64,000 bases of DNA from a virus: the IMG/VR virus record IMGVR_UViG_3300049845_000291, positions 62,001 through 126,000 of that record; one strand, 5' to 3'. Below are positions 3,228 to 34,335 of the stretch, piece after piece (position 1 is the first letter of the stretch; every line of letters begins with the position of its first letter). The position numbers were made by a program, and so were the translations under genes. The notes beneath the pieces are model-generated. The model saw only the letters and a program-made list of their open reading frames with translations. It did no database searches and was not told where the DNA came from.

Positions 3228-3406
3228 ATCCCACCTTTCTCTTTGATCTCGAACAACGAAGAACGGTTGACCCAGCGCTTCCAGGTCCCATCGTCTTCAC
3301 GCGCTGGGGTGACCTCGACGAGCTCTTGGGTCTTACCCACCACCTGTCGGTGGGCAACCCTGCCGGTGAGCTTGACCTCGATGTCATTCAGGACGTACGT
3401 GCTCAT
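3224..3406 (-). CDS. hypothetical protein (60 aa)
   Basis: Short basic protein opening MSTYVLNDIEVKLTGRV and ending EIKEKGGM; the beta-strand pattern with GR and KT turns is compatible with a small SH3/KOW-like fold, which is only a guess. It overlaps the upstream cREC gene by 23 nt and the downstream membrane gene by 4 nt. A TAAATA late box lies 27 nt upstream, inside the cREC coding region, so this gene and the next can be transcribed late on their own. Confidence 0.7.
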   Translation of the reverse strand: MSTYVLNDIEVKLTGRVAHRQVVGKTQELVEVTPAREDDGTWKRWVNRSSLFEIKEKGGM

Positions 3407-3707
3407 GTGCGTTGATGAAGCATTTCCAGAGGCTATTTAGGTTCTCAAGACCCACTGGGTTTGCTGAGTGCACGTGCATCCTGATCCGCATGACCTCTTG
3501 ACTAAAATGGCCATCAAGGAACCCGTTGATCAGGAACCAAAGGTACCCTGGAGCGTCAGCCCCATCACCAAGGTCATGATCCAGGCTCATCGCCAGTGGC
3601 AAGCCATAGGTCTTGGTGTGCTCTGTAGCGGCAGCAACCGACCGAGCTACCACCCATGAACCATCAGGCGGGGCGCGCAAGTCATCCAGGAAGAGCTTCC
3701 AGGTCAT
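3384..3707 (-). CDS. cyclic-phosphate-processing receiver-domain (cREC) protein
   Basis: 107-aa protein with the signature of the cREC family: WKLFLDDLRAPPDGSW at the N-terminus (acidic pair in LDDLR), then SLDHDLGDG in the middle and a conserved late VHSANPVG strand. This family is related to response-regulator receiver domains and was predicted by comparative genomics to process cyclic phosphate ends in RNA repair or nucleotide signalling. The same window holds RNA ligase 1, KptA and a macro domain, so an RNA-repair role fits. There is no Shine-Dalgarno; a TACAAT box ends 5 nt before the ATG. Confidence 0.72.
   Translation of the reverse strand: MTWKLFLDDLRAPPDGSWVVARSVAAATEHTKTYGLPLAMSLDHDLGDGADAPGYLWFLINGFLDGHFSQEVMRIRMHVHSANPVGLENLNSLWKCFINAHEHVRPE
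3434..3439 (-). promoter_or_regulatory. late promoter (TAAATA), minus strand
   Basis: CCTAAATAGCC on the minus strand, inside the 3' part of the cREC gene and 27 nt before ATG 3406 of the 60-aa gene. Confidence 0.6.
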
Positions 3708-3712
3708 ATGTC

Positions 3713-3718
3713 ATTGTA
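3713..3718 (-). promoter_or_regulatory. early-type -10 box with leaderless start
   Basis: TACAAT on the minus strand ends 5 nt before ATG 3707 (GACAT between). No ribosome-binding site can fit, so the mRNA would start at or next to the A of ATG. -35 is weak (GTGTAC region). Confidence 0.55.
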
Positions 3719-3741
3719 CCCAGACCAAGGCCCGGTGTACA

Positions 3742-4362
3742 CTACGCCGTGGCGGTCAACCCAGCGGTGAAGATCTTCTTCGCGTTCCGTAGTACCGCGA
3801 GACAGGCCCGTGCGTCGTTAAGCGGGTTGTGCAGGCCGCGCTTGTCGATCCCGCCAAGAAGCTCGAAGACCACGTCTGACTTGTACTCGCCAATCAGGGC
3901 AAATGAGAACCCACTGGTGTCCACCAGCACGTGATGGAACTTCAGTGCGTCTTCCAACCCATGATCACGGAAGAGCTGCATCGTGAAGTCGTTGTCAAAG
4001 CTCACGTTGTGGCCGATCGACATGATCTTTGAACCAGGAGCGAAGTACCGCATGAGCAGCTCGATCAGCGCCGCAAGCGCTTCCTCCCGAGGCATGCCGT
4101 GTTCCGCCAGGTACTCACGCGTCAGCCCGTGAATCTTCTGCGCACCCTCAGTCCACTTGTACTTGGTCTCATCGAACCGTAGCTCGCAGTGCAAGCTGTC
4201 AACCTCTTCCCAGGTCTCGGTGTTGACGATCAGTGCGCCAAAGGACAAACCTTGGTGCGCGATGCTGGAGTCTCCACCGAAGTCTGACCCTGATGTCTCC
4301 CAATCGATCAGCAGCCCGTACTTTCCTGGATGTGCCTTGCTGTACCCGCGTTCCCAAGCCAT
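3742..4362 (-). CDS. DnaQ-like (DEDDh) 3'-5' exonuclease
   Basis: 206 aa. Exo I is LLIDWETSG (17-25, D20 and E22), Exo II is IGHNVSFDND (~117-126), and Exo III is the HNPLNDARACL block near residue 180 supplying H and the last D; together these are the metal-binding DEDDh residues. An isolated exonuclease of this type in a T4-like phage may act like DexA or in nucleic-acid recycling; it lacks a polymerase domain. It follows the P-loop kinase gene, whose stop lies in the AGGAAC Shine-Dalgarno region, so the pair is co-translated. Confidence 0.82.
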   Translation of the reverse strand: MAWERGYSKAHPGKYGLLIDWETSGSDFGGDSSIAHQGLSFGALIVNTETWEEVDSLHCELRFDETKYKWTEGAQKIHGLTREYLAEHGMPREEALAALIELLMRYFAPGSKIMSIGHNVSFDNDFTMQLFRDHGLEDALKFHHVLVDTSGFSFALIGEYKSDVVFELLGGIDKRGLHNPLNDARACLAVLRNAKKIFTAGLTATA

Positions 4363-4363
4363 G

Positions 4364-4951
4364 TCAGTTCCTGTTCAAAAAGTTGATCACTTGATCAGCG
4401 CGCTCAGCTGTAGTTTTCGCACTGATCTCGAAGTACGGGGTGCTTGACATCAGAACGAAGTTCACCTCGTTCTGATACACCTGCTCGGCGCTGTTTCTCC
4501 TCGCGCGATGCGGGTCATCGACGAACTGCACGTGCTCCATGAGTGGAAGCAGCAGCACTGAGCTGTAGATCCTGTTCTGGGCTTCGAGACACATGAGGGT
4601 GTACTCTCTGAGCCATGCCATGGCCGGCCCGAGTGAGATCTTCCTGGCGTCAACTAGCTCCCACGTCCAGTACTGGGTGTACGCCACGATGTCTGCAAAC
4701 GTGCGCTCCACTAGGATCGGTCCCTTCAGGGCCTCGTCGTTCTCGGTCTTTCTGGTCCTCACAAGATCCTGGAACTTGCGCATGGTGTCCCAGGACTCCA
4801 TCACCTGATGAAGATTAGACCAACCGAGCTCGTTCTGGACGGCGCGCGAAACCTTGTACGGGTCGACTGCCCACCCACGTGCCTTGAGCTCCTCCAACAG
4901 GGTGCTCTTCCCGGCGCCCTGTGCGCCCGTGAGACCAATGATCATCATCAT
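4364..4951 (-). CDS. P-loop ATPase/kinase, NadR/AAA_28-like
   Basis: 195 aa with GAQGAGKST (9-17) at the N-terminus, a Walker A typical of small nucleotide or NadR-type kinases. An ERTFADIVAY segment (~80-90) resembles the D(R/F)...D lid motif of this group and a PHRARRNS region could be the LID. The substrate is unknown: nicotinamide riboside, a nucleoside or a nucleotide would all fit. Three tandem ATGs (4951, 4948, 4945) overlap the upstream stop; the exact start is uncertain. Confidence 0.72.
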   Translation of the reverse strand: MMMIIGLTGAQGAGKSTLLEELKARGWAVDPYKVSRAVQNELGWSNLHQVMESWDTMRKFQDLVRTRKTENDEALKGPILVERTFADIVAYTQYWTWELVDARKISLGPAMAWLREYTLMCLEAQNRIYSSVLLLPLMEHVQFVDDPHRARRNSAEQVYQNEVNFVLMSSTPYFEISAKTTAERADQVINFLNRN

Positions 4952-5289
4952 CGTAATGGCAGTAGCTCCGGTAGATCACGAAAAAGCTCTTCCTTCGTGA
5001 GGTGTGCCACCGCGTCGAAGAGCTCGTCTTCCTGGTACTCAGTGAAGGTCCACTGCAGGAAATGGCCTTCATACGACATCGAGCAAGTGAACCAGCTCGG
5101 GCGCTCACGAAGCGTTTCCAAGCTGAGAGATGGGCGCTCACGCAACTCTTCGGCGCCGATCTGAGTCTTGAAGTCCGTGGCGAACTCGCGCAAGGTGACC
5201 CCACGCTTCAGCTTCTTGATTCCAGAAGCCGTTCGTGTTCCTCGAACCGAGGCATCCACCGCGGTGACCAAGACAAATCGACGGGCCAT
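4948..5289 (-). CDS. hypothetical protein (113 aa)
   Basis: Opens MARRFVLVTAVDASVRGTR, followed by a repeated ELRERPSLSLE/LRERPSWFTC segment (~48-67) that looks like a short internal duplication. No family recognised. The upstream sequence lacks a Shine-Dalgarno; a weak TACAGT box (5296-5301) ends six nt before the ATG, the geometry seen at other early genes here. First gene of the run 4948-3742 with the kinase and exonuclease. Confidence 0.72.
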   Translation of the reverse strand: MARRFVLVTAVDASVRGTRTASGIKKLKRGVTLREFATDFKTQIGAEELRERPSLSLETLRERPSWFTCSMSYEGHFLQWTFTEYQEDELFDAVAHLTKEELFRDLPELLPLR

Positions 5290-5346
5290 GCCTGAACTGT
5301 ATCTTGGCGGGCACTCATTTCCTGCTCAATCGAGGTCAGAGGGCGA

Positions 5347-5352
5347 TAAATA
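5347..5352 (+). promoter_or_regulatory. late promoter (TAAATA), plus strand
   Basis: GCGATAAATAGATC, 22 nt before ATG 5375; it starts a lone plus-strand late gene that ends in a palindromic terminator. Confidence 0.65.
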
Positions 5353-5374
5353 GATCCAAATTCCTGGATTCGCT

Positions 5375-5722
5375 ATGGGTTCCTTCAAACAATTCATCCA
5401 GCTTCTTGATTCAGACCTGAATGAAGAGCAGCTCAATGAGATCTTCGGGTTGTTTAGAAACAACAAAGAGCAGAATGCTCAGAAGATCGCCGACCTGCGA
5501 AAACAACGGGCCGCCTTGGCTGGCAAGAAGAAGATGACTGACGCCGAGCTCAAGGCTGCCATGGATGCTTGGGCCGCTGGTCAGAAGAAGGTCCCCGGCA
5601 AGATCAGCCATGATGACCTGGAAGCTGCGCTCTCGGCCAACGACAGGAAAGCACTGACTCGCATGGACCGCGAGCGTGACGTGAAGAACGCCGAGCTGGC
5701 CAAGAGGCTTGGCCGAGCATAA
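5375..5722 (+). CDS. small late basic protein, possible internal head protein (115 aa)
   Basis: Begins MGSFKQFIQLLDSDLNEEQ, loosely like the capsid-targeting N-termini of T4 internal proteins and prohead-core components (MKTYQEFIAEA type), then becomes Lys/Arg/Ala-rich and helical. It is transcribed alone from a late promoter and closed by a strong palindrome. A packaged internal protein is therefore a reasonable guess, but a gp21-type cleavage site (E followed by A/G) is not obvious after the leader, and the family is not recognised. Confidence 0.7.
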   Translation: MGSFKQFIQLLDSDLNEEQLNEIFGLFRNNKEQNAQKIADLRKQRAALAGKKKMTDAELKAAMDAWAAGQKKVPGKISHDDLEAALSANDRKALTRMDRERDVKNAELAKRLGRA

Positions 5723-5743
5723 CCCGGCGACACCAGACAGCAC

Positions 5744-5765
5744 CGAGGGGCCCTAGGGCCCCTCG
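5744..5765. terminator. bidirectional palindromic terminator
   Basis: A perfect 22-bp GC-rich palindrome (cgaggggccc / gggcccctcg arms) between converging genes, followed on the plus strand by TCTGTTT. It closes the late gene at 5375-5722 and could also stop minus-strand reading. A related hairpin with the same GAGGGGCC arm lies after phoH. Confidence 0.7.
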
Positions 5766-5784
5766 TCTGTTTGGCTCAACACCT

Positions 5785-5961
5785 TTACGGTTTTGGTGTC
5801 ACCGGTGGCACCATGTCAATCAGCTCGGCTGGCACCGTGTCGAGCTCTTGAATGTCGGCGCCGGTCGTCAGCTCGATCGAGCTGTCCATGTACGTGTATC
5901 TCTCCTCGGACTGGCGAGGTTGACGCAGCAGCGAGTTTGCCCAGGACTTGATGTCGCTCAC
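5785..5961 (-). CDS. hypothetical protein (58 aa, GTG start)
   Basis: Opens MSDIKSWANSLLRQPRQSEE and ends with a Pro/Thr-rich tail (PPVTPKP). I choose GTG 5961 because GGAGAGG precedes it and the GTG overlaps the TGA of the 35-aa gene (GTGA). Longer readings in this frame run through the upstream genes and lack a ribosome site. Third gene of a short early-type operon 6277-5785. No known family. Confidence 0.62.
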   Translation of the reverse strand: MSDIKSWANSLLRQPRQSEERYTYMDSSIELTTGADIQELDTVPAELIDMVPPVTPKP

Positions 5962-6277: not shown

Positions 6278-6283
6278 GGTGGC

Positions 6284-6324
6284 ATCATACACCGCTTACG
6301 GCTTGAACTTGTAACGCGTTACAA
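6284..6324 (-). promoter_or_regulatory. early promoter with TGTAACG palindrome
   Basis: Minus strand TTACAA (6309-6314), 19-nt spacer, TATGAT (6284-6289), 6 nt, ATG. The -35 is half of a perfect 16-bp palindrome TTGTAACGCGTTACAA (6309-6324), a candidate operator. A plus-strand late box begins 4 nt beyond it, so the divergent early and late units share this site. Confidence 0.68.
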
Positions 6325-22332: not shown

Positions 22333-23478
22333 TCAGATGACCTCGAGACCCCAGTCCTTCTCGAGGTGGTGTTTCACGTACCACTCCATCCAGCTGGGTT
22401 CCTTCCCCCGGAACTTGGTCATGATCAACCCGAAAAGCGGGTTGTCCTTGTACGTCAGCGCCGTGGTCTTCGCGTCGAAGTTCTGCTGCTGCGCGTCCGC
22501 CACGATCGAGTTCACGATCATCTCGGCCTGTTCGATTCGCTGTTTGATCTGGCGCTCCACTGCCAGAATCGGGTCGATTGATCGTCCACACAGTACAAAA
22601 GCACCCTTAAGGTCGTCGGTCTTGTCGTCACATACGGCGCGCGCCACGTCGCGCCAACGGGTAAAGGTCACGGCGTGATGGAGCTCGTTGTACCACTTGG
22701 TCTTGAGCTTCACCATCTCACCGTTCTTGAACTGGATCACCCAGCCCTCGAGGTTCTCGGTGGTCTCAGCCGCTTGCTTGAGCAGGTCCCAACGGACCTC
22801 CACAGTCTTCGGGATGCCAGCGTCCGCCATGCCCCAGCTGAACTGCTCGATCAGGTTCGGTACGATCGGGAATGGTGAACCCAGCGCTTGGAGCTCTTGT
22901 TCCGTCAGGTACCGACCAGAGACATTTTCACGGACGTGCAGCAGCGTCAGCTCGTCCTTGTCGTACTTGATCACGATCGGGAAGCGCGGCGACGTGATCT
23001 CGAAGGTAGGTGTAAAACCATCGAGCAGCAGCTGCTCGATCCACTCGCAGCCGCCAGGCGTTGCCACGGCAACTTGGGCCGCCAGGGCCGCCTCTTTTGT
23101 CTCGAACGACTTCTTCGTCTTGAACCACGGGAACCTGATGACACCGTTTGTCATCATGACCGGCGTGACCATCGAACCGTCACGTTTCTCCATGATCCGC
23201 GTTACTTCGTGCCATGGCAGCACGTGAGGTTGTGTGTCCTCACGCTCGCCGATGTTGAAGAACTTGTGCAGTGTTCTGGCGGCGATCGTCCCGTCAGGGT
23301 TGAACGTGATCCCACGGCACTCGCGCTCCATGTGCTCGTGCTCGCCGCTGAACGTGTCCTCGTCCTGCACCATGTAGCACACGACGGTCATGCCGTTCTC
23401 TTCGGTCTTGACACGGATCTGCTTGTTCCCTTCGATGAAGGGAAGCAGGTCAGAGAGCTGCTTGATGGTTGGGATCAT
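22333..23478 (-). CDS. rnlA: T4-type RNA ligase 1
   Basis: 381 aa, the size of T4 Rnl1 (374). Nucleotidyl-transfer motif I is EKRDGS with K98 (T4 uses K99); ECRGITFN is the preceding conserved strand; motif IV LEGWVIQF and motif V VKLKTKWY follow at the expected distances. Rnl1 rejoins tRNA broken by host anticodon nucleases such as PrrC. A polynucleotide kinase-phosphatase partner is not in this window, but KptA, macro and cREC genes are. Start overlaps the 78-aa gene by 4 nt. Confidence 0.92.
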   Translation of the reverse strand: MIPTIKQLSDLLPFIEGNKQIRVKTEENGMTVVCYMVQDEDTFSGEHEHMERECRGITFNPDGTIAARTLHKFFNIGEREDTQPHVLPWHEVTRIMEKRDGSMVTPVMMTNGVIRFPWFKTKKSFETKEAALAAQVAVATPGGCEWIEQLLLDGFTPTFEITSPRFPIVIKYDKDELTLLHVRENVSGRYLTEQELQALGSPFPIVPNLIEQFSWGMADAGIPKTVEVRWDLLKQAAETTENLEGWVIQFKNGEMVKLKTKWYNELHHAVTFTRWRDVARAVCDDKTDDLKGAFVLCGRSIDPILAVERQIKQRIEQAEMIVNSIVADAQQQNFDAKTTALTYKDNPLFGLIMTKFRGKEPSWMEWYVKHHLEKDWGLEVI

Positions 23479-23751: not shown

Positions 23752-23907
23752 TCAGAAGGTTCGGAACAGCGCCCAGCAGGCTAGGAATAGGTTCAGCGCC
23801 GCTGAAATACCGACCACCAAACGCAGGTTGCTGATCTGCTTGGACTGCTTCAGGTCGATGTCTTTGAGCTGTGTCGATGTGACAACATCATTGCTCAGGA
23901 TCTTCAT
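23752..23907 (-). CDS. small membrane protein (51 aa)
   Basis: Open frame MKILSNDVVTSTQLKDIDLK with a polar first half and a hydrophobic C-terminal helix (LVVGISAALNLFLACWALF). ATG 23907 has GGAGAAATC upstream and overlaps the 3' end of the Pro-rich gene, so it belongs to that late operon. One-span C-tail proteins of this kind can be holin- or antiholin-like; unproven. The stop abuts the early promoter of the RNA ligase operon. Confidence 0.6.
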   Translation of the reverse strand: MKILSNDVVTSTQLKDIDLKQSKQISNLRLVVGISAALNLFLACWALFRTF

Positions 23908-24712
23908 ATACGATTTCTCCTTCTTCCAACTTCAGCAATCCTACCTTGGGTGTTGCTGGCTGGAAAACGGTCTTTGGTTGGTGTTTCGTGTCAGCCACCG
24001 ATGCTGCCACCTCGGTCATGGTGATCTTCAGTTCCTTTGGTGGAGCTGCCTTGATCTTAGGTGGAAGCACTGCAAGCTGCTCGAGCTTTGTTGACCGTGG
24101 TACCGGTGCGCTTTTCACGATCTCAAGCGGGTCAAGCTCAACCTTGTGCTCGGTCACAGGCACCGGGAGCTTGAAGTCTAGTCTCTTTGACTTTGGCTTA
24201 GGCGTAGCGATCTCTGCTGGTTTCCTTTCTTCTGGAACTTTGAGGACAGACTTGAGCAAAGAGATAGGGGCCGCTGGCACCTGTGAAGGAGCCGGTGTCA
24301 GAACTGGCGCCGGAACAGGTGGAGATACAGCGATCGCAGGAGCTGGGGCTGGAGCTGGAGGTTGAGTGAGCGCAATAGTCGGCTCTGGCATTGGCGCTGG
24401 CATTGGCGCTGGAGCCAGTGTGATGGTCGGTTCTTGCTGAACCGGCGCTTCCGTAAATCCAACGCTGATGCTGTGGTTGATCGGGGTAAAGATCCTTCCG
24501 TTGATCAAGACCTCGATCTTGAACGGATGCGCCCCTTCACGGAAATCAGACGGAAGATCGATGGTGACCTCCCACTCATCGCCAGACAGCTTGACAGCTG
24601 GGAACATGAGAGCCGGAGATTCACCAACGACGCACCGGCATGATGGTGTTGCAGCGGTTCCCATCACGTTCACATTGAACGTGACTCGATTCGTTTGATC
24701 AACGTACAGCAT
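23888..24712 (-). CDS. Pro/Ala-rich late structural-type protein (274 aa)
   Basis: An N-terminal beta domain (~1-90, ending SISVGFTE) is followed by a Pro/Ala low-complexity stretch (~95-150, many PAP and APAP units) and a Lys/Pro-rich region, closing with a short conserved-looking tail LLKLEEGEIVYEDPEQ. The linker and tail suggest an extended connector on the particle. Late promoter 22 nt upstream, inside the preceding gene. No family recognised. Confidence 0.7.
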   Translation of the reverse strand: MLYVDQTNRVTFNVNVMGTAATPSCRCVVGESPALMFPAVKLSGDEWEVTIDLPSDFREGAHPFKIEVLINGRIFTPINHSISVGFTEAPVQQEPTITLAPAPMPAPMPEPTIALTQPPAPAPAPAIAVSPPVPAPVLTPAPSQVPAAPISLLKSVLKVPEERKPAEIATPKPKSKRLDFKLPVPVTEHKVELDPLEIVKSAPVPRSTKLEQLAVLPPKIKAAPPKELKITMTEVAASVADTKHQPKTVFQPATPKVGLLKLEEGEIVYEDPEQ

Positions 24713-25055
24713 GGTTCACCCTGAGGTTCTCGATATTTACGACGACCTTGGTGGGCTGAACATGGACGTCGGTCACGGTCACCAGCTCGAGCTGTGACCT
24801 GACCTCTTGGGTACTTGATCCACTGAGTTCTTGGAACTGCGCTGTAACCAGGATTCTTTCGAGCTCTGTTGGTAGTGCAGGAGGTTCCCACTTCTGCGGT
24901 GGCCGGGCGGTGATCCATTTCGATTGTGGGTTGCTTACCGCTGGGCCGATGACCGGTCTGAGCTCATCAATGAGCCTCTCCAGGACTATTGCACGCCGGT
25001 TCCCGCAGAACGCGTCAAGCGTGCTGCTGGTCAGGGTGCAGTAATTGATAGCCAT
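24699..25055 (-). CDS. hypothetical late protein (118 aa)
   Basis: MAINYCTLTSSTLDAFCGNR; two early cysteines, a helical middle, and C-terminal strands LELVTVTDVHV / KVVVNIENLRV. TAATG overlap with the upstream amidase-like gene, 14-nt overlap with the downstream gene. Could be a baseplate- or tail-associated small protein judging from the neighbours; unproven. Confidence 0.7.
   Translation of the reverse strand: MAINYCTLTSSTLDAFCGNRRAIVLERLIDELRPVIGPAVSNPQSKWITARPPQKWEPPALPTELERILVTAQFQELSGSSTQEVRSQLELVTVTDVHVQPTKVVVNIENLRVNHAVR
24734..24739 (-). promoter_or_regulatory. late promoter (TAAATA), minus strand
   Basis: GTCGTAAATATCG, 21 nt before ATG 24712, inside the 3' end of the 118-aa gene. 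Confidence 0.58.
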
Positions 25056-25690
25056 TAGACCCGCTTCTCGTAGATGACCTCGAAGTCAGGGCAGTGATAG
25101 AACATTGAAGGGGTCAGGTTCTTCTTGCGCTTGATCATCGCTTCGAAGTTTGCAAAGTCCTGCTCATAGTTCGGTTGGCCCTTGAGGACATTGCGAACAA
25201 GCTCGACGCAGCTCACGCGAGTGGCGTCGGCGATGTCGAACAGGTTGTCGTACTCCTTACCAAGCTCCCCAATCGCCGCGTCAAGCACGGTGCGCCACTC
25301 ATCCAGCGTCATGCTCTTAGGCTTGAGGAAGGCGACGCCTTGAATACCGCCAAAGACCTCGTCGAATGATGGCACCCGTGAACCTGAACCAACGGCCTCA
25401 ACCATGTCCCTTGATGCTGGCATCAGACGGAAGTCAGCATCAGTCTTGACCTCATCTTCGAGGTTGATCAGCACGTGTGACCAGCGACCCCAACGCCCAG
25501 TCAGGAACAGGTCACTCAGACCAATGAAGAACGATGACAGGTGGTTGCTGCGATACGTGCAGATCACCAGGTAGTTCTCTTTGAGCTGCGATCGGATGAA
25601 CTCCAGATCCTCATCAGGCAACCGACGTTTGGTGCTCCAGTGAATCTTGCCAATAAATTTGACGACCGCCTCAGTAATCCCTTTGAACAT
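25055..25690 (-). CDS. permuted papain-like (YiiX/C92-type) cysteine hydrolase (211 aa)
   Basis: H72 in RWSHVLINLE and C161 in RVSCVELVRNVL are in the order of circularly permuted papain-like enzymes (YaeF/YiiX group): His first, Cys later, followed by Glu. Such enzymes act as amidases or peptidases on murein or lipids. Within a fibre/tail block it might be a virion-borne wall or envelope hydrolase. ATG 25690 with GGGGTGATC before it is chosen over a longer reading that would overlap the upstream gene. Confidence 0.65.
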   Translation of the reverse strand: MFKGITEAVVKFIGKIHWSTKRRLPDEDLEFIRSQLKENYLVICTYRSNHLSSFFIGLSDLFLTGRWGRWSHVLINLEDEVKTDADFRLMPASRDMVEAVGSGSRVPSFDEVFGGIQGVAFLKPKSMTLDEWRTVLDAAIGELGKEYDNLFDIADATRVSCVELVRNVLKGQPNYEQDFANFEAMIKRKKNLTPSMFYHCPDFEVIYEKRV

Positions 25691-25694
25691 GTGA

Positions 25695-26213
25695 TCACCC
25701 CGTAAAGATGGCTGGCCAGAATCCGCTGAAGTTATAGGTTTCCGGCGCTGTTGAAGCGAGCATATTGACACGGTGTTGCTCCGCAACACCAAAGGCCGTC
25801 ATATCTAAAGTTGCAGCGGCGTTAAAGATGGACAGAGCGATAGCTGGTGTCATCTCGATGAATGATCCATCCATCGTTTTCCATTGAATTCCAGTAGGCA
25901 ACCCAGCGCCCATCATCACGAGACCAAGTTGTTGAATTCGCGATGTTTGATCAGAGTGAAACCACTTATTGATGGATGCGATAAACACACCACCATTTTG
26001 GCGCCGCGTGCGTTCATCCTGAATGGCAAGCCACATTCGATCCTTCTTCATTTGAAGGATCTCAGCGTCTAGTAATTCTTTCGTGGGGAGAGCTCCAGCG
26101 CCCTCGACAAGAAGGCTCTGATAATCTGCTGCCGAGCCCTGAGCTCGTACCACAAGCTCAGGGTGGTTCTGGACAATTGCATCAAGGTAATTTGGAATTT
26201 GGATGACGCTCAT
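25695..26213 (-). CDS. fibre-associated DUF4376-like protein (172 aa)
   Basis: Central block WKTMDGSFIEMTPAIALSIF (~108-127), preceded by RRQNGGVFIASINKWFHSD, matches the arrangement of DUF4376 domains found beside tail-fibre genes (a W..DG..I.LT...A..I pattern). These are thought to be fibre chaperones or small fibre parts. It lies right behind the repeat-rich fibre gene, with stop-start overlap. Confidence 0.68.
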   Translation of the reverse strand: MSVIQIPNYLDAIVQNHPELVVRAQGSAADYQSLLVEGAGALPTKELLDAEILQMKKDRMWLAIQDERTRRQNGGVFIASINKWFHSDQTSRIQQLGLVMMGAGLPTGIQWKTMDGSFIEMTPAIALSIFNAAATLDMTAFGVAEQHRVNMLASTAPETYNFSGFWPAIFTG

Positions 26214-28273
26214 CAGCCCACCTCTGTAATTTCATAGCTAGACACGAGAGCCCCGCCAAGATCGTTTCCGGCGCTTGTTGAATTGACATACCAAGTTCCA
26301 GAGCCCGCACCAATACCAACACGCATTGAGTACGTGATTTGATTAGTGGTGGCTGGACTATCAGACACCGCTAGCGTAATTGTTGTTGGGCGACCGCCAC
26401 CAGTGGCGTACCAGACCGCAGATCCAATGTTAAGGGACCCACGAAAGAGCGAAGCAATAACGATGCGGTTTGAGGTGCTGCTGTCAACCGTAAATGGTAC
26501 CGTGAACTTCATTGTTGAAGTTGACTTTGACGGCGAAATTGCGGTGCTCCAGATCTCCGATCCTTCAGTGATCGTAGGGGTAGTGTTATCGTAAGGGACA
26601 GCTGACGTACCTGAAGTCGACGGAATTATTCCCGTGTAGACCGCAAGAATACCGACGCCGCCTGAAACAACCGTGCCGATTTGATACCACTGTCCGTTTT
26701 GGTAGATTTCTGTCGCATTGAGCGTGCTGTTGTACCTAATTTCGCCATTGAGCGGCACTGCTGGCCGCTCAGCTGTTGTTCCAGTTGGAACAACCACACC
26801 CTCTGTTCCAGGAAGAACCGGATTTGGTGCTATGGCAACGGTTGGGTTGGCTGAGGTTCCTGCTCCATCTGCGACCGTGATCTGATTGGTCGTTCCTTGA
26901 ATGGCGCGGGTTGCCCATGTGTCCGCACCTGTGCGGACAGCAATACCCGTTGTGGTAAGCCCCTCAACTGCCGCTAGATCGTTAGCAAGAGCAAATGTTG
27001 GATTTCCACCAACACCAGCAGGGTGGGTGATGGTGATACCGGATGCTGGAGCCGTTAGTGAACGTGCTGCCCAAGTGTCTACATCAATTCGCGTGTAGAA
27101 ACCGGTGCCATTGAGCGTTTCGATGGCAGCGAGATCATTTGCAAGAGCAAAAACCAGCGTCCCGGCAGAAGTTATAGGGGCGCCAGTAATTGTCAACCCA
27201 GCTGCAGGCTGTGTCACATCTACAGAGGTAACGGTTCCATTTCCTGCTGATGCGTACTCCAAAGCAGTACCAGCGGCATTGACCCTGAGCACCTGCAGTG
27301 CTGTTCCGATCGTTGCGAGTCCTGTTCCACCATTTGCAGTCGGAATAATGCCGCTCAGTGCAATTGTTGGGTTAGCGGTGCTACCATCAGCAACTGAGAT
27401 GGTGATATTCTGTCCACCAACTAAAGTGCGGGTTGCCCATGTGTCCGCGCCCGTACGTACCGCGATGCCCGTTGTGGTAAGCCCCTCAACTGCCGCTAGA
27501 TCGTTAGCGAGCGTGAAGACCAGTGTACCAGCTGTAGTGATTGGCGAACCGCTGATCGTGAAGCCGGCTGTTGGAGCCGTTGCCGCAACCGAGGTAACGG
27601 TGCCAGTGCCACCAGTTTGGGCGCTGTTAACCCATGCCACACCGTTATATGACAGCACCTGCCCATTAGTTGGAGAGCTGATGATGACATCAGACAGGTC
27701 ATCTAAAGACAGAGAGATAGCTGCAGGTGCCACGGAGACCACACGACCAAATGTGTCAGTCGTGAAGACAGGAACCGAGTTAGCTGAACCGTAGGTTCCA
27801 GCTGCGCCGGCGGGAACCAGGTTGATTGTCGGATTGCCTGCAATCCCGTCACCATTATCGACGACAACGTTACCAGCGGTCCCGGTAAGAACGCGGGTGA
27901 CCCACGTATCAGCTCCAATCCTAGATGCGAGACCAGAACTAGACAGACCTTCTAGAGCGGCAAGGTCATTTGCCAGCGTGAATGTTAGCGTGCCAGCATT
28001 TTGAATAGGCCCACCAGAAATGGTGAGACCGGAAGATGGTTGAACAACGTTGATCTCAACGTCGCCATTTTGCAGGTGCCAATTCCAACTGGCGTCAGAT
28101 TCGCCTGACTTGATGTAAAGTTCGCCGTTGTCTCTTAGAAAGAGAGAACCACGCGGAGCTGGCGTGCCAGCTCCGACGCTTGGATCGACGTTCCCTGAAA
28201 AGATCGCGATGTCAGTTTCAGTGAATGCAAGACCATTCTCGAACTGAAACGCTAGTGATAGATCTGTCGCCAT
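26213..28273 (-). CDS. repeat-rich tail-fibre protein (686 aa)
   Basis: N-terminal ~60 residues contain PAPRGSLFLRDNGELYIKSG, a module also found in the next fibre gene. Then come four tandem ~70-aa units, each TISGxPIxxAGTLxFxLAND, LAAxExL, and ADTWxTR, typical of beta-helical fibre shafts. The C-terminal ~150 residues (NGEIRYNSTLNATEIYQNGQ onward) resemble a fibre tip. The ribosome site is weak. Adhesin role is inferred from repeats and neighbours. Confidence 0.8.
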   Translation of the reverse strand: MATDLSLAFQFENGLAFTETDIAIFSGNVDPSVGAGTPAPRGSLFLRDNGELYIKSGESDASWNWHLQNGDVEINVVQPSSGLTISGGPIQNAGTLTFTLANDLAALEGLSSSGLASRIGADTWVTRVLTGTAGNVVVDNGDGIAGNPTINLVPAGAAGTYGSANSVPVFTTDTFGRVVSVAPAAISLSLDDLSDVIISSPTNGQVLSYNGVAWVNSAQTGGTGTVTSVAATAPTAGFTISGSPITTAGTLVFTLANDLAAVEGLTTTGIAVRTGADTWATRTLVGGQNITISVADGSTANPTIALSGIIPTANGGTGLATIGTALQVLRVNAAGTALEYASAGNGTVTSVDVTQPAAGLTITGAPITSAGTLVFALANDLAAIETLNGTGFYTRIDVDTWAARSLTAPASGITITHPAGVGGNPTFALANDLAAVEGLTTTGIAVRTGADTWATRAIQGTTNQITVADGAGTSANPTVAIAPNPVLPGTEGVVVPTGTTAERPAVPLNGEIRYNSTLNATEIYQNGQWYQIGTVVSGGVGILAVYTGIIPSTSGTSAVPYDNTTPTITEGSEIWSTAISPSKSTSTMKFTVPFTVDSSTSNRIVIASLFRGSLNIGSAVWYATGGGRPTTITLAVSDSPATTNQITYSMRVGIGAGSGTWYVNSTSAGNDLGGALVSSYEITEVG
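26911..26986. repeat. intragenic fibre repeat, copy 1
   Basis: 76 bp nearly identical to 27433-27508, 522 bp (174 codons, in frame) apart; encodes the end of one shaft unit and the ADTWATR motif. Low divergence points to recent duplication or gene conversion. Confidence 0.7.
27433..27508. repeat. intragenic fibre repeat, copy 2
   Basis: Second copy of the 76-bp element at 26911-26986. Most of the differences cluster in one 15-bp stretch; the last ~35 bp are identical. Confidence 0.7.
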
Positions 28274-28298
28274 TCACAATCTCTTCAGGTGCTGTTCA

Positions 28299-29633
28299 TT
28301 AGAACGCGGCGATAGCTGAGATTCGCTGGGCCTTGACGTCAACGGCTGCGGTTGATTGGACGTTCAGCACAAGCGAACCACCCGACAGCGTAACAGTCGC
28401 TTGGAACCCAGTGATGTTTCCACCGCGGGTGAGAGCGGCAAAGATCGTCGAATCAACGCTGGTACCATTGTGCATCGCGAAGACCTTGAAGGAACGGATG
28501 CGGGTTGGGGTGGCGGTTTCACGAACGTAGACATCCCACTCGGCAGCAACTGCAGCAACGGTATCGACCGCAGAGATCGAGGTGACGTTGGTCAGCGTGG
28601 TGGTCAGGCTGGTAGCCGCGATGGCTGCGTCAAGCTTGCCAACAGCTGCGGTGACACTGTCGCCATCAACGATGTAGTTGTTGGTGCTGTAGTCAGGAGT
28701 GCCAACCCCGGCGGTCTTACCGAGATAATCGTTGATCGAGGCAACTTCACCATCTAGCGCAGTAACGTTCTGGTTGACGGTGTTGGCTGCAAGAATGACT
28801 TCGCCGTTTGCAACGGTACCGCCGATCTCAGCATCGAGCTTACCAATGGCAACTTCAAGGTTGTCACCGTCAGCGACGATGTTGACCGAGCTGTAGTCTG
28901 GCAGCTCGTTGCCAGCACCAGTCTTGCCCATGAAGGCATTGGCAAATGCCGATTCAGCATCAAGCTTACCAATGCCAGTTTCCAGGCTGTCGCTATTGGC
29001 AACTACTGTGGTGCTGGTGTAGGTTGGGAGCTCGTTACCTGGACCATCTTTACCGATGAAGGCGCGAATGAAGGCGTCCTCGTCAGAGGCGGAGCCCTGA
29101 ATCCAGATCCAGTCCGTACCGTCGTACTGGTAAGTCTTGCCAGCGTCAACACCGCCAACAACGTAGGTGGTGTCACCAGAAGATTCTGGGTTCAAGTCTT
29201 CTGTGAGAGTCCAGTTGCCAGACGTGCCGCTGACAACGAAGATGTTCTTGTTGCCGGTGACGCTTGCGCCAAGGATCCGCATACCGAGCGTGACTGGAAC
29301 GCCCTGGATCAGGTCATCGGCGTCAAGATCGGCCTTCAGGCTCGCGACATCGGTTGCCGTCGTGTCGATGACCGAAACCGGTTCACGCCAGGAAAGACCC
29401 GAAGACGCAACTGTGTTGACATAGTCCTCAGTTGCAATCTTCTTCCACTTGTCAGTGCCGACACCAGCGGCAACCTTCATGTAAAGGTCGCCGGAGGTGG
29501 TATCCGTGAAGTACGAACCGCGTGGGGCGGTGGAAGTATCACCGGAAGCGCCTGGAGCGCCTGCGCCGGTGAGGAATTGCGCTGCTTCATCGAGCTCAAG
29601 GCCACGATAAATGCGGAAGAAATCTGCTGCCAT
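28299..29633 (-). CDS. repeat-containing virion/fibre protein (444 aa)
   Basis: N-terminal ~60 residues include TAPRGSYFTDTTSGDLYMK, related to the neighbouring fibre. Residues ~200-340 hold three ~40-aa repeats of GKxGxGNELPxY ... VAxxDxLExxIGKLDA. The C-terminal ~90 residues (EWDVYVRETATPTRIRSFKV) form a beta domain seen in fibre or spike ends. AGGAGACAC and a late promoter precede ATG 29633. Confidence 0.78.
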   Translation of the reverse strand: MAADFFRIYRGLELDEAAQFLTGAGAPGASGDTSTAPRGSYFTDTTSGDLYMKVAAGVGTDKWKKIATEDYVNTVASSGLSWREPVSVIDTTATDVASLKADLDADDLIQGVPVTLGMRILGASVTGNKNIFVVSGTSGNWTLTEDLNPESSGDTTYVVGGVDAGKTYQYDGTDWIWIQGSASDEDAFIRAFIGKDGPGNELPTYTSTTVVANSDSLETGIGKLDAESAFANAFMGKTGAGNELPDYSSVNIVADGDNLEVAIGKLDAEIGGTVANGEVILAANTVNQNVTALDGEVASINDYLGKTAGVGTPDYSTNNYIVDGDSVTAAVGKLDAAIAATSLTTTLTNVTSISAVDTVAAVAAEWDVYVRETATPTRIRSFKVFAMHNGTSVDSTIFAALTRGGNITGFQATVTLSGGSLVLNVQSTAAVDVKAQRISAIAAF

Positions 29634-29670
29634 AGTGTGTCTCCTACTGGATCCTAAGGATCAATGCCTC

Positions 29671-29676
29671 TATTTA
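29671..29676 (-). promoter_or_regulatory. late promoter (TAAATA), minus strand
   Basis: TGACTAAATAGAG, 37 nt before ATG 29633; it drives the 444-aa and 686-aa fibre genes. Confidence 0.66.
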
Positions 29677-29677
29677 G

Positions 29678-30388
29678 TCAATGTTGAATGCGGGTGACAG
29701 TAACTTCGACGTCGAATGCCTCGTCGTTCTGCCAAACCAGTCTGATCTTTTTTAGGGCCGTGTCCAACACAATGCTGGCCGTTCCCAAAAACCGGTCGCC
29801 AACTCGCGAGCTGACATTCCAAGTTCCTGATTCAAGGTCATTCAACAAGTCACCGCGGACATTGCATAGAACCTCGAAGGTTGTTGAGTTGAAGTTCGAC
29901 GGCGCATACAGCGTCACGAAGAACTTGAAGCCGCGTTTTGTCGAGCTGTAATCAGCTTCATCGACGATCGCGGTCTGTGCGCCAAGTACGGTACTTGTTG
30001 ATGTTCCACCGGGCACGTCTCCAGCACCAGTCGAAACAGGCAGCTGCATTGCGCGCTGCATCGTCTCGGCTGTGACGCGATGGTCGACAAGCGTCTCATT
30101 TCCAACGGCGCTGGACCAAGCTTGCGCCGTTGTCCCTTCCATTCCACGATCTGAAAGGCTAAAGTACAGCGTATCGCCAACGCGCTGCGTGACCTTGATG
30201 ATCTCACGGGTGGTGGCCGCCTGGTCTTCAAGCGTGACTAGGAAGTACTCGCCAGGCCCTGGATTTGGGAACAGCGCACCATACCCCGCCATCACCGTCA
30301 ATGACGTTGAAGTCGCGCTAATAGGTGCGGTCAGGAGGCTGACCGCGTTGTTCGAAAACAGCTGAACCTCTGAAAGCGATACTGGCAT
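29678..30388 (-). CDS. virion-type protein (236 aa)
   Basis: Beta-rich; the GEYFLVTLEDQAATTREIIKV block and the later RGMEGTTAQAWSSAV segment (~82-96) match a pattern in phage tail proteins where a small-molecule or sugar domain joins a fibre. The C-terminal half resembles the end domain of the 444-aa protein (KRGFKFFVTLYAP, DEAFDVEVTVTRI). Directly upstream of the fibre genes, coupled to a small gene (overlap of one base). Confidence 0.72.
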   Translation of the reverse strand: MPVSLSEVQLFSNNAVSLLTAPISATSTSLTVMAGYGALFPNPGPGEYFLVTLEDQAATTREIIKVTQRVGDTLYFSLSDRGMEGTTAQAWSSAVGNETLVDHRVTAETMQRAMQLPVSTGAGDVPGGTSTSTVLGAQTAIVDEADYSSTKRGFKFFVTLYAPSNFNSTTFEVLCNVRGDLLNDLESGTWNVSSRVGDRFLGTASIVLDTALKKIRLVWQNDEAFDVEVTVTRIQH

Positions 30389-31257: not shown

Positions 31258-31283
31258 TCCCAACCTGCATGTTACGAGGCTCC

Positions 31284-31763
31284 TTATTTATCGCCTTCAG
31301 CAGGTGTACGGGTGTCCAGCACCCAAAGAGTGCTGTCAGGAAGGTAGCGTGAGATCAGGGCGCTGACAACCTGCCAGTCAGCGCCGCCCAGGCCGCAGCC
31401 GATTAGTGGGTGATGGCAATCAGCAGAGGTAAGGCTCAAACCTTGCAGCTGCCAGGCCAGGGTGGCAAGTGCTTCATCGAGGGCGTCGTACGACGTGTAC
31501 CGACGCTTCTCGCGGCCGTAATACCGCTGACCGAACAGGTTCGCCACGTAAAGATCGGGAGTTACCTTCAAGACCTGAACCAGACCAAGCAGCTCATGGT
31601 CTGAAAAGAGCTTGCAGCGCTCCTCGTACCGCTCCCAGACAATGGGGTACTTGGCGCGCAGCTCCTTTGCAATCCCGGAGGCCATGACTCCCTGGCAGTT
31701 CACCTGGTGCATGATGACGCCTTTGGTGACGCCTGTAACGAGATTGCCGTTCACGATCTTCAT
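31284..31763 (-). CDS. macro-domain ADP-ribose-phosphate hydrolase-like protein (159 aa)
   Basis: Single macro domain: GNLVTGVTKGVIMHQVNCQG (6-25) then VMASGIAKELR, VANLFGQ, and GCGLGGADW near residue 123, all ligand-loop motifs of the Poa1p/ADP-ribose-1''-phosphatase branch. In tRNA splicing such enzymes act downstream of Tpt1 and cyclic phosphodiesterase. KptA lies 1.5 kb away and Rnl1 is in the same window. An upstream AAGGAG serves a 6-codon mini-ORF whose stop overlaps this ATG. Confidence 0.85.
   Translation of the reverse strand: MKIVNGNLVTGVTKGVIMHQVNCQGVMASGIAKELRAKYPIVWERYEERCKLFSDHELLGLVQVLKVTPDLYVANLFGQRYYGREKRRYTSYDALDEALATLAWQLQGLSLTSADCHHPLIGCGLGGADWQVVSALISRYLPDSTLWVLDTRTPAEGDK
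31285..31290 (-). promoter_or_regulatory. late promoter (TAAATA), minus strand
   Basis: GCGATAAATAAGG at the very end of the macro-domain gene, 27 nt before ATG 31257. Confidence 0.6.
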
Positions 31764-31820
31764 GGCGACGACCGGTGCATCCGGTCTCCTTGGTGGTTGG
31801 TACTGTGTCGGTAGCGATTC

Positions 31821-31850
31821 GGTGTCACCGGCGTCGTCTGGTGTCGTCGG
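31821..31850. repeat. interspersed GTGTCGCCGG repeat, copy C
   Basis: 30 bp identical at 26 of 30 positions to copy D (36648-36677). It lies in the 87-bp gap between the macro gene and the next gene's stop. Confidence 0.62.
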
Positions 31851-32300
31851 TCAGGCGTCTGCATATTCCTTGGAGATTGACAGGAACTCGATTCGATCGA
31901 GCTCCCGCTGCAGCCGCTCCTCGGTCTTGACCGCGCGCTTCATGATCCTGAGCAAGGCGTACGCCAGGTCACGGTACTCGTGCCCAAGGTACTCGTGCGC
32001 CACGCTGCCGTCGCCTTTCCAGGACAAGCAGTAATCGATGACCTGCTCAATCAACAGGTGCTTGTCGGCGATGTTCTCGATCTTCGGTTCGTCAACAGCC
32101 CTGAGCGCCCGCTCATCGGCAACTCGCTTCGCGACTTCCTTGGAGAACAGCTCGTTCTCATGACAGCGTGAAAACGAGAACTTCAGGGTCTCATCGCCGT
32201 TGCGCTCAAACCGAAGACACACGCCGCCCTTTGGGTCAGTTTCGATCTCACAACGCTCAAGGTTCAGTCGAACAGGTCGTACATACCGATAGAAGATCAT
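31851..32300 (-). CDS. hypothetical protein (149 aa)
   Basis: Begins MIFYRYVRPVRLNLERCEIE with strands, then a long helical part (ELFSKEVAKRVADERALRAV). No motif recognised. ATG follows the thyA stop by 2 nt, so it is co-transcribed with thyA; repeat copy C abuts its stop. Confidence 0.72.
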   Translation of the reverse strand: MIFYRYVRPVRLNLERCEIETDPKGGVCLRFERNGDETLKFSFSRCHENELFSKEVAKRVADERALRAVDEPKIENIADKHLLIEQVIDYCLSWKGDGSVAHEYLGHEYRDLAYALLRIMKRAVKTEERLQRELDRIEFLSISKEYADA

Positions 32301-32301
32301 G

Positions 32302-33234
32302 TCAAGCTGCCATTTCAGCCTTGATGGGCGGGTGGGGGTTGTAGTTCAGGACGTTGAAGTTCGCTGTCGTGAACTGGTCGAAACGCGGCACGTCGCCATT
32401 GATCTCAATGATCGGCGGAACTCGGGTCGTCCTCCTAAGCTGCTCACGCACTTGATCAAAGTGATTGTGGTAAATGTGCGTGTCGCCCAGCACCATAATC
32501 AACCGATCAGCGATGCAGCCCGTCGTGTACGCCAACATGTACGTCAACAGGGCGTACGACGCGATGTTGAATGGCAGCCCGAGGAACGAGTCCACTGAGC
32601 GCTGGTACATCTGGCACGACAGCCGACGATCAGAGGTCACGAAGAACTGCGCGAACATGTGGCACGGTGGCAAGGCCATCTGGTCGAGCTCACCTGGGTT
32701 CCAGGCGCTAAGCACGATTCGGCGGTCCGTTGGGTTGTTCACAAGCTTGTCGGCGACCTGCTGCAGCTGATCGATCTGTGACTTCAGGACCTTCGCCCCG
32801 AAGTACGTCGTGCTGCCATCATCATGCGTCAGGTAGTCCTCGTACCCGTGAAGGCGGAAACTTTGCCAGTTCCGCCACTGCACACCGTACACGCGCCCCA
32901 GATCACCTTTGAAGGCCGGTTTGAAGCTCGAGCCAGAGGTGTGCTCAGCGTTCGGAGACCAGATCGTCTTCTTCTCTGGATCACGCGTCCCATGAAGCAG
33001 CTCAGCAAGGCGACGTTCGTCACCACTGCCCTCGATGAACCAAAGCAGCTCGGTCAGCACGGCCTTGAATGGCACTCGCTTCGTGGTTGCCAGCGGCAAC
33101 ATGCCGCCCAGCAGCTCAATCTCCAGGCGCTCACCGAACAGCGCCCTGGTTCCAACACCAGTCCGATCCATGCGGTCATCACCATGACGTAGGATCTTGT
33201 CGTACAACGCAAGCAGTTGATCTTCCCAGAACAT
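32302..33234 (-). CDS. thyA: thymidylate synthase
   Basis: 310 aa, ThyA/td type. DRTGVGT (23-29), WRNW, the nucleophile ALPPCHMFAQF (C191), SYQRS-like QMYQRSVDSFLGLPFNIASY with N223, and HIYHNHFDQ are all present. The Asn retained in LPFNIASY marks a dUMP enzyme; dCMP hydroxymethylases have Asp there. It supplies dTMP, or a modified dUMP derivative, for phage DNA. Neighbours KptA and a 149-aa gene overlap closely. Confidence 0.94.
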   Translation of the reverse strand: MFWEDQLLALYDKILRHGDDRMDRTGVGTRALFGERLEIELLGGMLPLATTKRVPFKAVLTELLWFIEGSGDERRLAELLHGTRDPEKKTIWSPNAEHTSGSSFKPAFKGDLGRVYGVQWRNWQSFRLHGYEDYLTHDDGSTTYFGAKVLKSQIDQLQQVADKLVNNPTDRRIVLSAWNPGELDQMALPPCHMFAQFFVTSDRRLSCQMYQRSVDSFLGLPFNIASYALLTYMLAYTTGCIADRLIMVLGDTHIYHNHFDQVREQLRRTTRVPPIIEINGDVPRFDQFTTANFNVLNYNPHPPIKAEMAA

Positions 33235-33752
33235 TATTCGATCCTCTTAATATTGGAGATTGGGACCTCGGTGACCAACCAGACCCCGTTGTCGGCTTGA
33301 TAGAACGGACACAACATGGACCTTGTGCTGATCTCAAGCAGCACCAGATCGCGTTTACGTCGGCCCCCGACGGCCCGTGCGTCGTCTTGGTTCTCTGAGA
33401 GATGGACGTGATGCCGCCTCATGCTCCGCAGTCCCTGCTTTTGGATGGTCTCCCAGGCCTGGTCATTGGTGCCATGGAAGAGCACAGGCGGCGGGGTCTT
33501 GATCGCGTACTTGACGCGCACCAGAGGTGTGCTGTGCCCTTGTACTGCCCGGATCTTCGTTCGATCCGCGTTCAGCGCGTACCGCTGCTTGTCGTCCTGC
33601 TCAACGATCTGCAGGATCTCGTCCAACTGCAGCGCGGTGTTTTGCAGAAGCTGCTCGATCGACACCCAACCCTGGGTGTCGATCGAGAGGTTTGCGGCTT
33701 CGGGCTTGTGCCGCAGCAGGTACGACAGGTACTTTGACGACTCGGTAAGCAT
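33234..33752 (-). CDS. kptA: RNA 2'-phosphotransferase (Tpt1/KptA)
   Basis: 172 aa. Signature LLRHKPEA (R14, H15) in the N-terminal winged-helix part, LFHGT (~92) and HVHLS (~115) in the NAD-binding half, and RKRDLVLLEI. Tpt1/KptA moves an RNA 2'-phosphate to NAD+, giving ADP-ribose cyclic phosphate. With Rnl1, macro and cREC proteins this forms an RNA-repair set; it might also act on ADP-ribosylated or phosphorylated targets. Leaderless: TAAAAT ends 6 nt before the ATG. Confidence 0.92.
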   Translation of the reverse strand: MLTESSKYLSYLLRHKPEAANLSIDTQGWVSIEQLLQNTALQLDEILQIVEQDDKQRYALNADRTKIRAVQGHSTPLVRVKYAIKTPPPVLFHGTNDQAWETIQKQGLRSMRRHHVHLSENQDDARAVGGRRKRDLVLLEISTRSMLCPFYQADNGVWLVTEVPISNIKRIE

Positions 33753-33758
33753 GCGCCG

Positions 33759-33764
33759 ATTTTA
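33759..33764 (-). promoter_or_regulatory. early-type -10 with leaderless start (kptA)
   Basis: TAAAAT, six nt (CGGCGC) before ATG 33752; no TTACA element at -35 and no ribosome site. Confidence 0.5.
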
Positions 33765-33798
33765 GCATCGCGCTGCTTTCCGAGCCCCAACGATTGGG

Positions 33799-34335
33799 TT
33801 ATGTCATTGGATCGGCTAGCTGATCTGCTAAGCGAAGCAGTTGGATGGCCGTTCCGACGATGCCTTCCGCCACCGTGGTCATGCGCAGGTCGTCGAAGCT
33901 TTCACGGTTACCGGCGACGTTCAGCACACCGATCTTGGAGGCCACAACGAAGGTGGCAAGCTCACGTGCAGACTTGTCGACGAGGCCGGACCACACGGTC
34001 CCGCCCGTAGAGTTCTTCAGATGCTCGGAAACGTCGATCACCAGCACGGGCTTGTTCGCGCGCCTGCACTGGTTCACGGTCAAGACCGAGCCCGGCGATG
34101 AGAGCTTCCACGAGATCAGGACCGTACCGTCGGAATCCGCGATGTTCCGGATCGTACGAGAGCGCAGGTCACCGCTTGCTTTCAGGTTCAGGAGTTGCAG
34201 CAGCGGATTCGGCCCCTTTGCCGTCTGGAACCCATCCGGTGCGGTGCCGCCGGTCGGCACGCTTTCCTTGAAGGCCGCGATCAAGCCGCCCTGGTCCGCG
34301 CCGGTCTGCCCGCCGCTGATGATCTTGCGAAGCAT
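33799..34335 (-). CDS. SLOG-superfamily / putative molybdenum-carrier-like protein (178 aa)
   Basis: ISGGQTGADQGGLIAAF (6-22) followed by PTGGTAPDGF is the nucleotide-binding start of the YspA/putative Mo-carrier branch of the SLOG superfamily; RTIRNIADSDGTVLIS and GSVLTVNQCRRANKPVLVID follow as expected. SLOG proteins bind or make nucleotide-derived signals, including cyclic ADP-ribose species sensed by anti-phage effectors. Next to kptA this suggests handling of an NAD-derived ligand; unproven. AAGGGC precedes ATG 34335. Confidence 0.8.
   Translation of the reverse strand: MLRKIISGGQTGADQGGLIAAFKESVPTGGTAPDGFQTAKGPNPLLQLLNLKASGDLRSRTIRNIADSDGTVLISWKLSSPGSVLTVNQCRRANKPVLVIDVSEHLKNSTGGTVWSGLVDKSARELATFVVASKIGVLNVAGNRESFDDLRMTTVAEGIVGTAIQLLRLADQLADPMT

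Follow-up and report, generated by a model that had tools for sequence, protein, structure and literature searches.

A 64,000-base stretch of virus DNA (the window; bases 62,001-126,000 of the 152,208-base virus record IMGVR_UViG_3300049845_000291) encodes an RNA ligase of the T4 Rnl1 family, a KptA/Tpt1 RNA 2'-phosphotransferase, a macro domain, a cyclic-phosphate-processing receiver-like domain (cREC) and a SLOG protein. The original prediction for this DNA held that the five are dispersed through one phage and could form a complete RNA-end or NAD-derived-signal pathway. The reading that we favour, and to which we give about an even chance, is that this large T4-like phage carries two functional groups, one for RNA repair and one for an ADP-ribose counter-defence that acts independently of KptA. 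Specifically, we conclude that Rnl1 and KptA are parts of a tRNA-repair set, to which cREC probably also belongs, and we think it more likely that the macro domain and SLOG are independent parts of an ADP-ribose counter-defence. The original prediction is partly supported: the RNA-repair parts are borne out, a complete or single NAD-signal pathway is not, and nothing in the evidence links the set to Thoeris.

To identify these proteins and their relatives we used Pfam, PHROGs, NCBIfam, PADLOC, solved structures, predicted structure models and scans of viral contigs; gene absences were counted per virus record, and all of these records may be incomplete. All five open reading frames (ORFs) are present on the minus strand of the one record, and the family given to each in the original prediction holds by matches to Pfam, PHROGs or solved structures:

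22333..23478, minus strand, T4 Rnl1-family RNA ligase (PF09511, 2e-22, 80 bits; phrog_562, 2e-63; T4 Rnl1 structure 2c5u, 2.5e-24)
33234..33752, minus strand, KptA/Tpt1 RNA 2'-phosphotransferase (PF01885, 6e-45, 154 bits against a cut-off of 26; Runella Tpt1 structure 7kw8, 3e-33)
3384..3707, minus strand, cREC (PF20274, 1.5e-15, 58 bits against a cut-off of 27)
31284..31763, minus strand, macro domain of the ALC1-like class (BT1257/SCO6735/DarG/Poa1p group; phrog_335, 2e-40; PF01661, 20.3 against a cut-off of 22)
33799..34335, minus strand, SLOG protein of the circularly permuted YpsA type (cpYpsA; PF12694, 8e-29, 101 bits against a cut-off of 26; solved relative 3IMK, 2e-16)

Judged by their conserved motifs, all five proteins look functional. 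Residues R14, H15, R68 and R113 of KptA align with R16, H17, R64 and R119 of Runella Tpt1, which we take to be the active-site tetrad of that enzyme, and the Arg-His-Arg-Arg tetrad is invariant across 12 phage KptA proteins; the KptA active site is thus intact at these positions, and NAD+-dependent removal of RNA 2'-phosphates is predicted. Rnl1 aligns over residues 53-360 with T4 Rnl1, into the C-terminal region of the latter, and its motifs I (K98-R-D-G-S), III (F159-E), IV (E244-G) and V (K257-L-K) have key residues that are invariant in 6 orthologues; its NCBIfam score of 119 is short of the equivalog threshold, 242. cREC, for which hydrolysis of cyclic phosphates is predicted, has the motifs LDD (7-9), SLDHDLG (41-47) and HSAN (80-83), with D8, D9, D43 and D45 invariant in 6 sequences, and the SLOG motifs SGGQTG, RT..N and LNVAGNRE are invariant in 10 phage orthologues. 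The macro domain falls under the Pfam cut-off, yet its identity is secure because of the match to phrog_335, the matches to solved macro domains (1e-10 from one sequence, 6e-22 from a profile) and a predicted structure that adopts a macro fold with confidence.

The SLOG, KptA and macro genes lie on one strand in a run with the order DnaJ-SLOG-KptA-ThyA-unknown-macro, the other members of which are as follows:

34345..35181, minus strand, DnaJ-domain protein (PF00226, 2.9e-17) at the upstream edge of the run, its position kept in relatives
32302..33234, minus strand, ThyA, thymidylate synthase (PF00303, 2e-89), within the run
31851..32300, minus strand, clade-restricted 149-amino-acid (aa) protein (unk149) between ThyA and the macro domain, with an AlphaFold model of pLDDT 91

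From SLOG to the macro domain the run spans 3,052 bases, so the term dispersed does not suit these three genes; it does suit Rnl1, 8 kb from the macro domain and 19 kb from cREC, and cREC, which lies 28 kb from the macro domain in a second conserved block. Our viral-contig scans revealed a clade of related phages with contigs of up to 350 kb (genomes and loci are given below as G and L numbers), and SLOG, KptA, ThyA and the macro domain occur together in nine genomes, the window included; the most distant of these have topoisomerases 43-50% identical to that of the window, and the internal order of the run is altered in L073/L116. Because the synteny flanking the run is likewise conserved (topoisomerase subunits, DnaJ, fibre genes, Rnl1 and PhoH), the conserved run alone is no proof of a shared task. 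We rejected the 149-aa protein as a hidden pathway enzyme: no solved structure matched its confident model (best E 0.1), and apart from weak matches to unnamed phage proteins it has seven relatives only, all within this clade.

Comparison of the runs indicates that SLOG and the macro domain do not depend on a neighbouring KptA. KptA is missing between SLOG and ThyA in G001, G008, G012 and G013, all four of which retain SLOG; the macro domain is retained in the run in G001, G012 and G013 (the latter two having the order SLOG-ThyA-macro) and lies elsewhere in G008. SLOG and the macro domain thus persist where KptA is absent (G001, G008) or relocated (G012, G013), and therefore need no KptA beside them, and KptA and cREC have been gained and lost separately. 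(In G001, bases 170248-170508 give a partial KptA-like match of 28 bits inside a 310-aa frame outside the run, possibly another ADP-ribosyltransferase-fold protein.) Outside the clade, SLOG lies within about 10 kb of 0 of 77 KptA loci, a set that includes a few duplicates by KptA sequence, and in the same range the macro domain is found at 5 and cREC at 1; conversely, among the 42 outside SLOG loci searched, a macro domain is nearby at 2 and KptA at 0. The association of SLOG with KptA is thus specific to this clade, and with just 5 of 77 loci we rejected KptA plus macro as a general phage linkage. Both the persistence of SLOG and the macro domain and the count of 0 of 77 speak against one NAD-derived-signal pathway.

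The second conserved block bears on the relation between KptA and cREC. The slot that cREC occupies is bounded by three genes:

4364..4951, minus strand, P-loop kinase (AAA_28; PF13521, 8e-11) with invariant GAQG.GKS and VSRAVQ, a conserved neighbour of the cREC/KptA slot
3742..4362, minus strand, RNase T/DEDD-type exonuclease (PF00929, 1.5e-6; phrog_192, 7e-21), directly upstream of cREC
3224..3406, minus strand, small conserved ORF (w3224) that overlaps the end of cREC and marks the slot boundary, with its orthologue after cREC, or after KptA in L158/L179

The order kinase-RNase T-cREC-w3224, continuing toward the DNA polymerase, is found in the window, G001, G002/G010, G003 and G014, and is kept with one additional gene in G015; two small genes displace cREC in G005, and G004 has nothing in the slot and a divergent cREC some 10 kb away. 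In the near-identical pair G012/G013 the order is kinase-RNase T-74-aa ORF-KptA-w3224 (L158/L179 8299-10525, against 3384-4951 in the window), and a search of these two records found no cREC and no second KptA. In unrelated phages, moreover, cREC adjoins KptA (L005) or an Rnl1-type ligase (L084-L086, probably one phage). The shared slot and these neighbours support the notion that cREC and KptA serve the same kind of task, and the gene-order evidence does not favour cREC acting solely downstream of KptA. A more specific version, which we regard as unlikely though worth stating, is that KptA and cREC are alternative solutions for RNA ends, with cREC acting directly on cyclic or 2'-phosphate ends, the AAA_28 protein as a 5' kinase and the RNase T protein as an end trimmer. 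We rejected the AAA_28 protein as a proven polynucleotide kinase, as it had no informative solved or family match. Two further genes lie near cREC: a Nudix gene directly after it in G002/G010, at the same position in both (L076 3494-3955, L077 8427-8888), in keeping with published sets that pair cREC with Nudix, and with no counterpart in the window, and a NUMOD3 homing-endonuclease-like gene inserted near the cREC block of the window (2312-2983, plus strand).

The phage is T4-like in that it encodes topoisomerase subunits, a beta-glucosyltransferase and a family-B DNA polymerase. We ruled out close kin among named phages: a search with a 20-kb stretch gave no near-identical phage DNA, and the topoisomerases of named phages (e.g. 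Xanthomonas phage X1 and Pseudomonas phage pf16) share 40% identity or less with the one here. It is probable that the 152-kb record represents part of a larger genome, a point that matters for the RNA-repair group. We found no tRNA genes or RNA families that might be repair targets in the window or in the 152-kb record, and no polynucleotide kinase-phosphatase (Pnkp), HD-Pnk, 2H or Nudix protein of the kinds seen in relatives in that record; the proposal of a complete RNA-end pathway is therefore unsupported for this record. Searches for a HAD-type Pnkp (HAD_PNKP) detected the enzyme of T4, our positive control, and found none in the 152-kb record or among 10 relatives. Those of the relatives searched that measure 235-343 kb have 16-44 tRNAs, and six of them (G002, G004, G005, G008, G009 and G010; loci L100-L107, e.g. 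L103 844-2019) encode an HD-Pnk-type protein of 375-400 aa in which an HD domain (under the Pfam cut-off) precedes a P-loop kinase domain. We take this layout to be that of HD-Pnk end-healing enzymes, and it is likely that the missing part of the genome holds a healing enzyme and tRNAs. Two other candidates were set aside. The 2H-like protein of relatives is not the missing cyclic phosphodiesterase, as its match to Acb1 (PF23474), an anti-CBASS protein, is much stronger than that to the 2'-5' RNA ligase family (L095 1384-1824 and L096 1327-1752, in G004 and G010, with the same gene in G002; Acb1 was not seen in the 152-kb record); and a 774-aa protein (record 46792-49116, L009 6792-9116), considered as a second ligase, has a weak N-terminal likeness to RNA ligases (17 bits in Pfam and PHROGs).

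On the reading that we favour, Rnl1, KptA and cREC would repair RNA, their targets most likely being tRNAs that host anticodon nucleases have cleaved, and the HD-Pnk that the intact phage probably encodes would supply the 5' kinase and clean the 3' end. We suspect that cREC shares the chemical task of KptA because KptA takes over its slot in two relatives; its probable substrates are RNA ends with a cyclic phosphate or a 2'-phosphate, and not solely the product of KptA. In the second group, the macro domain would strip ADP-ribose from DNA, RNA or small molecules and SLOG would bind or cleave an ADP-ribose-type nucleotide, the two acting as counter-defence independently of KptA despite sharing its same-strand run. 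The families, the active-site residues, the order of the genes and the way they come and go are read from the sequences, whereas the substrates, the tRNA target, the reaction of cREC and any defence that is countered are predictions.

Several observations weigh against this reading. The shared run could stem from common ancestry, as topoisomerase-DnaJ synteny is equally conserved, and it is not clear why bacteria need KptA. The slot may be a mere insertion hot spot, because one kind of KptA-for-cREC swap was seen, in two near-identical phages; in a KptA tree, moreover, the slot protein of G012/G013 is sister to the KptA of the clade with modest support (0.83) and groups with that of L117, a phage outside the clade (support 0.995), a placement suggesting that it was acquired separately. 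In the 152-kb record there is no tRNA, Pnkp, HD-Pnk or 2H enzyme, Rnl1 could serve tail-fibre attachment, and the SCO6735 DNA-binding lysines K34 and K89 are not conserved in the macro domain.

One rival reading is independent accretion, in which five unrelated host-takeover or anti-defence genes, of the sort that large phages gather, are linked by no pathway and their neighbourhood is inherited synteny. We consider this somewhat unlikely. Several observations are in its favour: clade synteny extends well beyond the five genes, KptA, cREC and the macro domain come and go separately, the 77 outside KptA loci seldom have any of the others nearby, and KptA and cREC phage records have no common accession among the matches listed. 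In addition, domain base rates are high in jumbo phages, for which the portions of PMC9503650 drawn on here give macro domains in 56%, SLOG in 31% and cREC in up to 18%, and our own search found a phage macro domain of the same type in 1,461 phage records, so that co-occurrence of the five genes alone is weak evidence. What is beyond chance is the conserved gene arrangement, and even that is partly general clade synteny. Accretion does not readily account for the grouping of SLOG, KptA, ThyA and the macro domain in nine genomes at topoisomerase identities down to 43-50%, even where reordered, or for one slot that holds KptA in some genomes and cREC in others.

A further possibility, which we also consider somewhat unlikely, is that the macro domain is unrelated to RNA repair and, perhaps together with SLOG, strips ADP-ribose from phage DNA or RNA to counter defences of the DarT type or other ADP-ribosylating ones. 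Its best non-phage relatives are BT1257, SCO6735 and DarG: the macro profile matches BT1257 at 6e-22, SCO6735 at 3e-17, DarG at 4e-11 and Poa1p at 3e-6, and DarG is the nearest macro domain in both NCBIfam (6e-14) and PADLOC (6e-16). N22 and Q79 of the phage domain are invariant and equivalent to Asn27 and Gln85 of SCO6735, a protein in which Gln85 is essential for removal of ADP-ribose from thymidine in DNA and which reverses DarT damage in cells (PMC9411070); other phage countermeasures against DarTG are known (PMC11481870). However, no lysine is invariant among 8 phage macro domains, including at the position of the catalytic lysine of DarG (K80) or TARG1 (K84), which makes the lysine mechanism of those enzymes unlikely, and the SCO6735 lysines K34 and K89 are, as noted above, not conserved. 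The T4-type beta-glucosyltransferase (58731-59876 of the window) is a further complication, as phage DNA may already be modified. Together with a second thymidylate-synthase homologue outside the window (record 126625-127632, L013 7625-8632), this enzyme suggests that the phage DNA probably bears a glucosylated modified base. ADP-ribosylated DNA is at least as likely a substrate of the macro domain as ADP-ribose 1''-phosphate.

The single yeast-like pathway for ADP-ribose phosphates put forward in the original prediction is, in our judgement, improbable. Every candidate enzyme is encoded in one phage, tRNA splicing offers established chemistry for the Tpt1 product and its processing by macro domains, the step assigned to cREC has been predicted in print (portions of PMC7824862 and PMC9503650), and a Nudix gene follows cREC in G002/G010. 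In a fold comparison with the macro model, Poa1p is also a close structural match (TM 0.75); BT1257 ranks first in that comparison, with Poa1p, TARG1, DarG and SCO6735 about equal, so that a Poa1p-like macro domain is possible by fold but not favoured by profile, which is nearer to BT1257 and SCO6735. Against the pathway, G012/G013 have KptA without cREC, G001 has cREC with no KptA in the cassette (and the 28-bit match elsewhere), and SLOG and the macro domain persist without KptA.

Equally hard to sustain is a role for Rnl1 mainly as a tail-fibre attachment factor, outside RNA repair: the gene does adjoin tail and fibre genes in the window and in relatives, and T4 gp63 is annotated with a second role in fibre attachment that PHROG 562 also carries, but the ligase motifs are unchanged across orthologues 55-66% identical and larger relatives encode HD-Pnk. 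Repair and attachment are inseparable by sequence for this protein. The adjoining genes are as follows:

23888..30388, minus strand, fibre and structural genes adjoining Rnl1 (phrog_2837 tail protein, phrog_8469 tail fiber, phrog_697 structural protein)

The roles considered here have precedents. Iyer, Burroughs, Anantharaman and Aravind named cREC and predicted its substrates to be cyclic phosphates, either in RNA ends or in ADP-ribose; KptA, macro and SLOG were already placed in RNA-repair and counter-defence sets of large phages (portions of PMC7824862 and PMC9503650). The idea behind the original prediction is thus a published framework recovered in an undescribed phage clade, because Iyer et al. 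predicted each role in 2021-2022. The jumbo-phage sets of these two papers (Iyer et al. 2021, PMC7824862; 2022, PMC9503650) resemble ours in having Rnl1, KptA, cREC, macro, SLOG and Nudix members, in their predicted roles and in their large myovirus-type genomes; in the portions drawn on here, however, the SLOG-KptA-ThyA-macro run and the exchange of KptA and cREC in one slot are not described, and the partners of cREC are sirtuin, 2H, Nudix or a T4-like ligase and not KptA. The phage V5-type set (sirtuin, T4-like tRNA ligase, cREC, nucleotide kinase and MazG; PMC9503650, in the same portions) is similar in that cREC lies beside a nucleotide-kinase-like gene and a T4-type RNA ligase is in the same genome, and differs in that here there is no sirtuin among the genes scanned, KptA is present instead and the ligase lies 19 kb from cREC.

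More distant comparisons are also partial. As in T4, with Rnl1 and Pnkp (PseT), there is an Rnl1 member with all catalytic motifs, but the larger relatives have HD-Pnk in place of a HAD-type Pnkp, which was found neither in them nor in the record. Fungal tRNA splicing by Trl1, Tpt1, cyclic phosphodiesterase and Poa1p offers a Tpt1 homologue with a full active site and a macro domain as counterparts, whereas no 2H cyclic phosphodiesterase was found here. In Deinococcus radiodurans a three-gene operon (DRB0099 and its neighbours) links a protein with HD-phosphatase and kinase domains to a PARG gene (PMC11833690). HD-Pnk and a macro-fold ADP-ribose hydrolase are thus in one genetic system, as in the phage clade, but the HD-Pnk of the relatives lies elsewhere in the genome and the phage macro domain is ALC1-like rather than PARG.

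We regard the phage as a fresh example of a described toolkit, and not as a new kind of system or one proven pathway. This analysis adds the nine-genome SLOG-KptA-ThyA-macro run, the exchange of KptA for cREC and the finding that macro and SLOG do not depend on KptA, and it documents HD-Pnk, Acb1 and tRNAs in the larger relatives. The functions of cREC, of viral SLOG proteins and of many phage macro domains have so far been predicted only, and a clade in which cREC, SLOG, macro, KptA, RNA ligase and HD-Pnk are gained, lost or swapped at fixed positions offers natural comparisons that narrow each role. cREC and KptA look like alternatives, and the clade opens the published prediction for cREC to direct testing. 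Elsewhere in the window (43140-45409), an NTP-transferase/APH-like fusion adjoins a SIS-domain protein, an arrangement that is kept in relatives and may represent a nucleotide-sugar or modification pathway.

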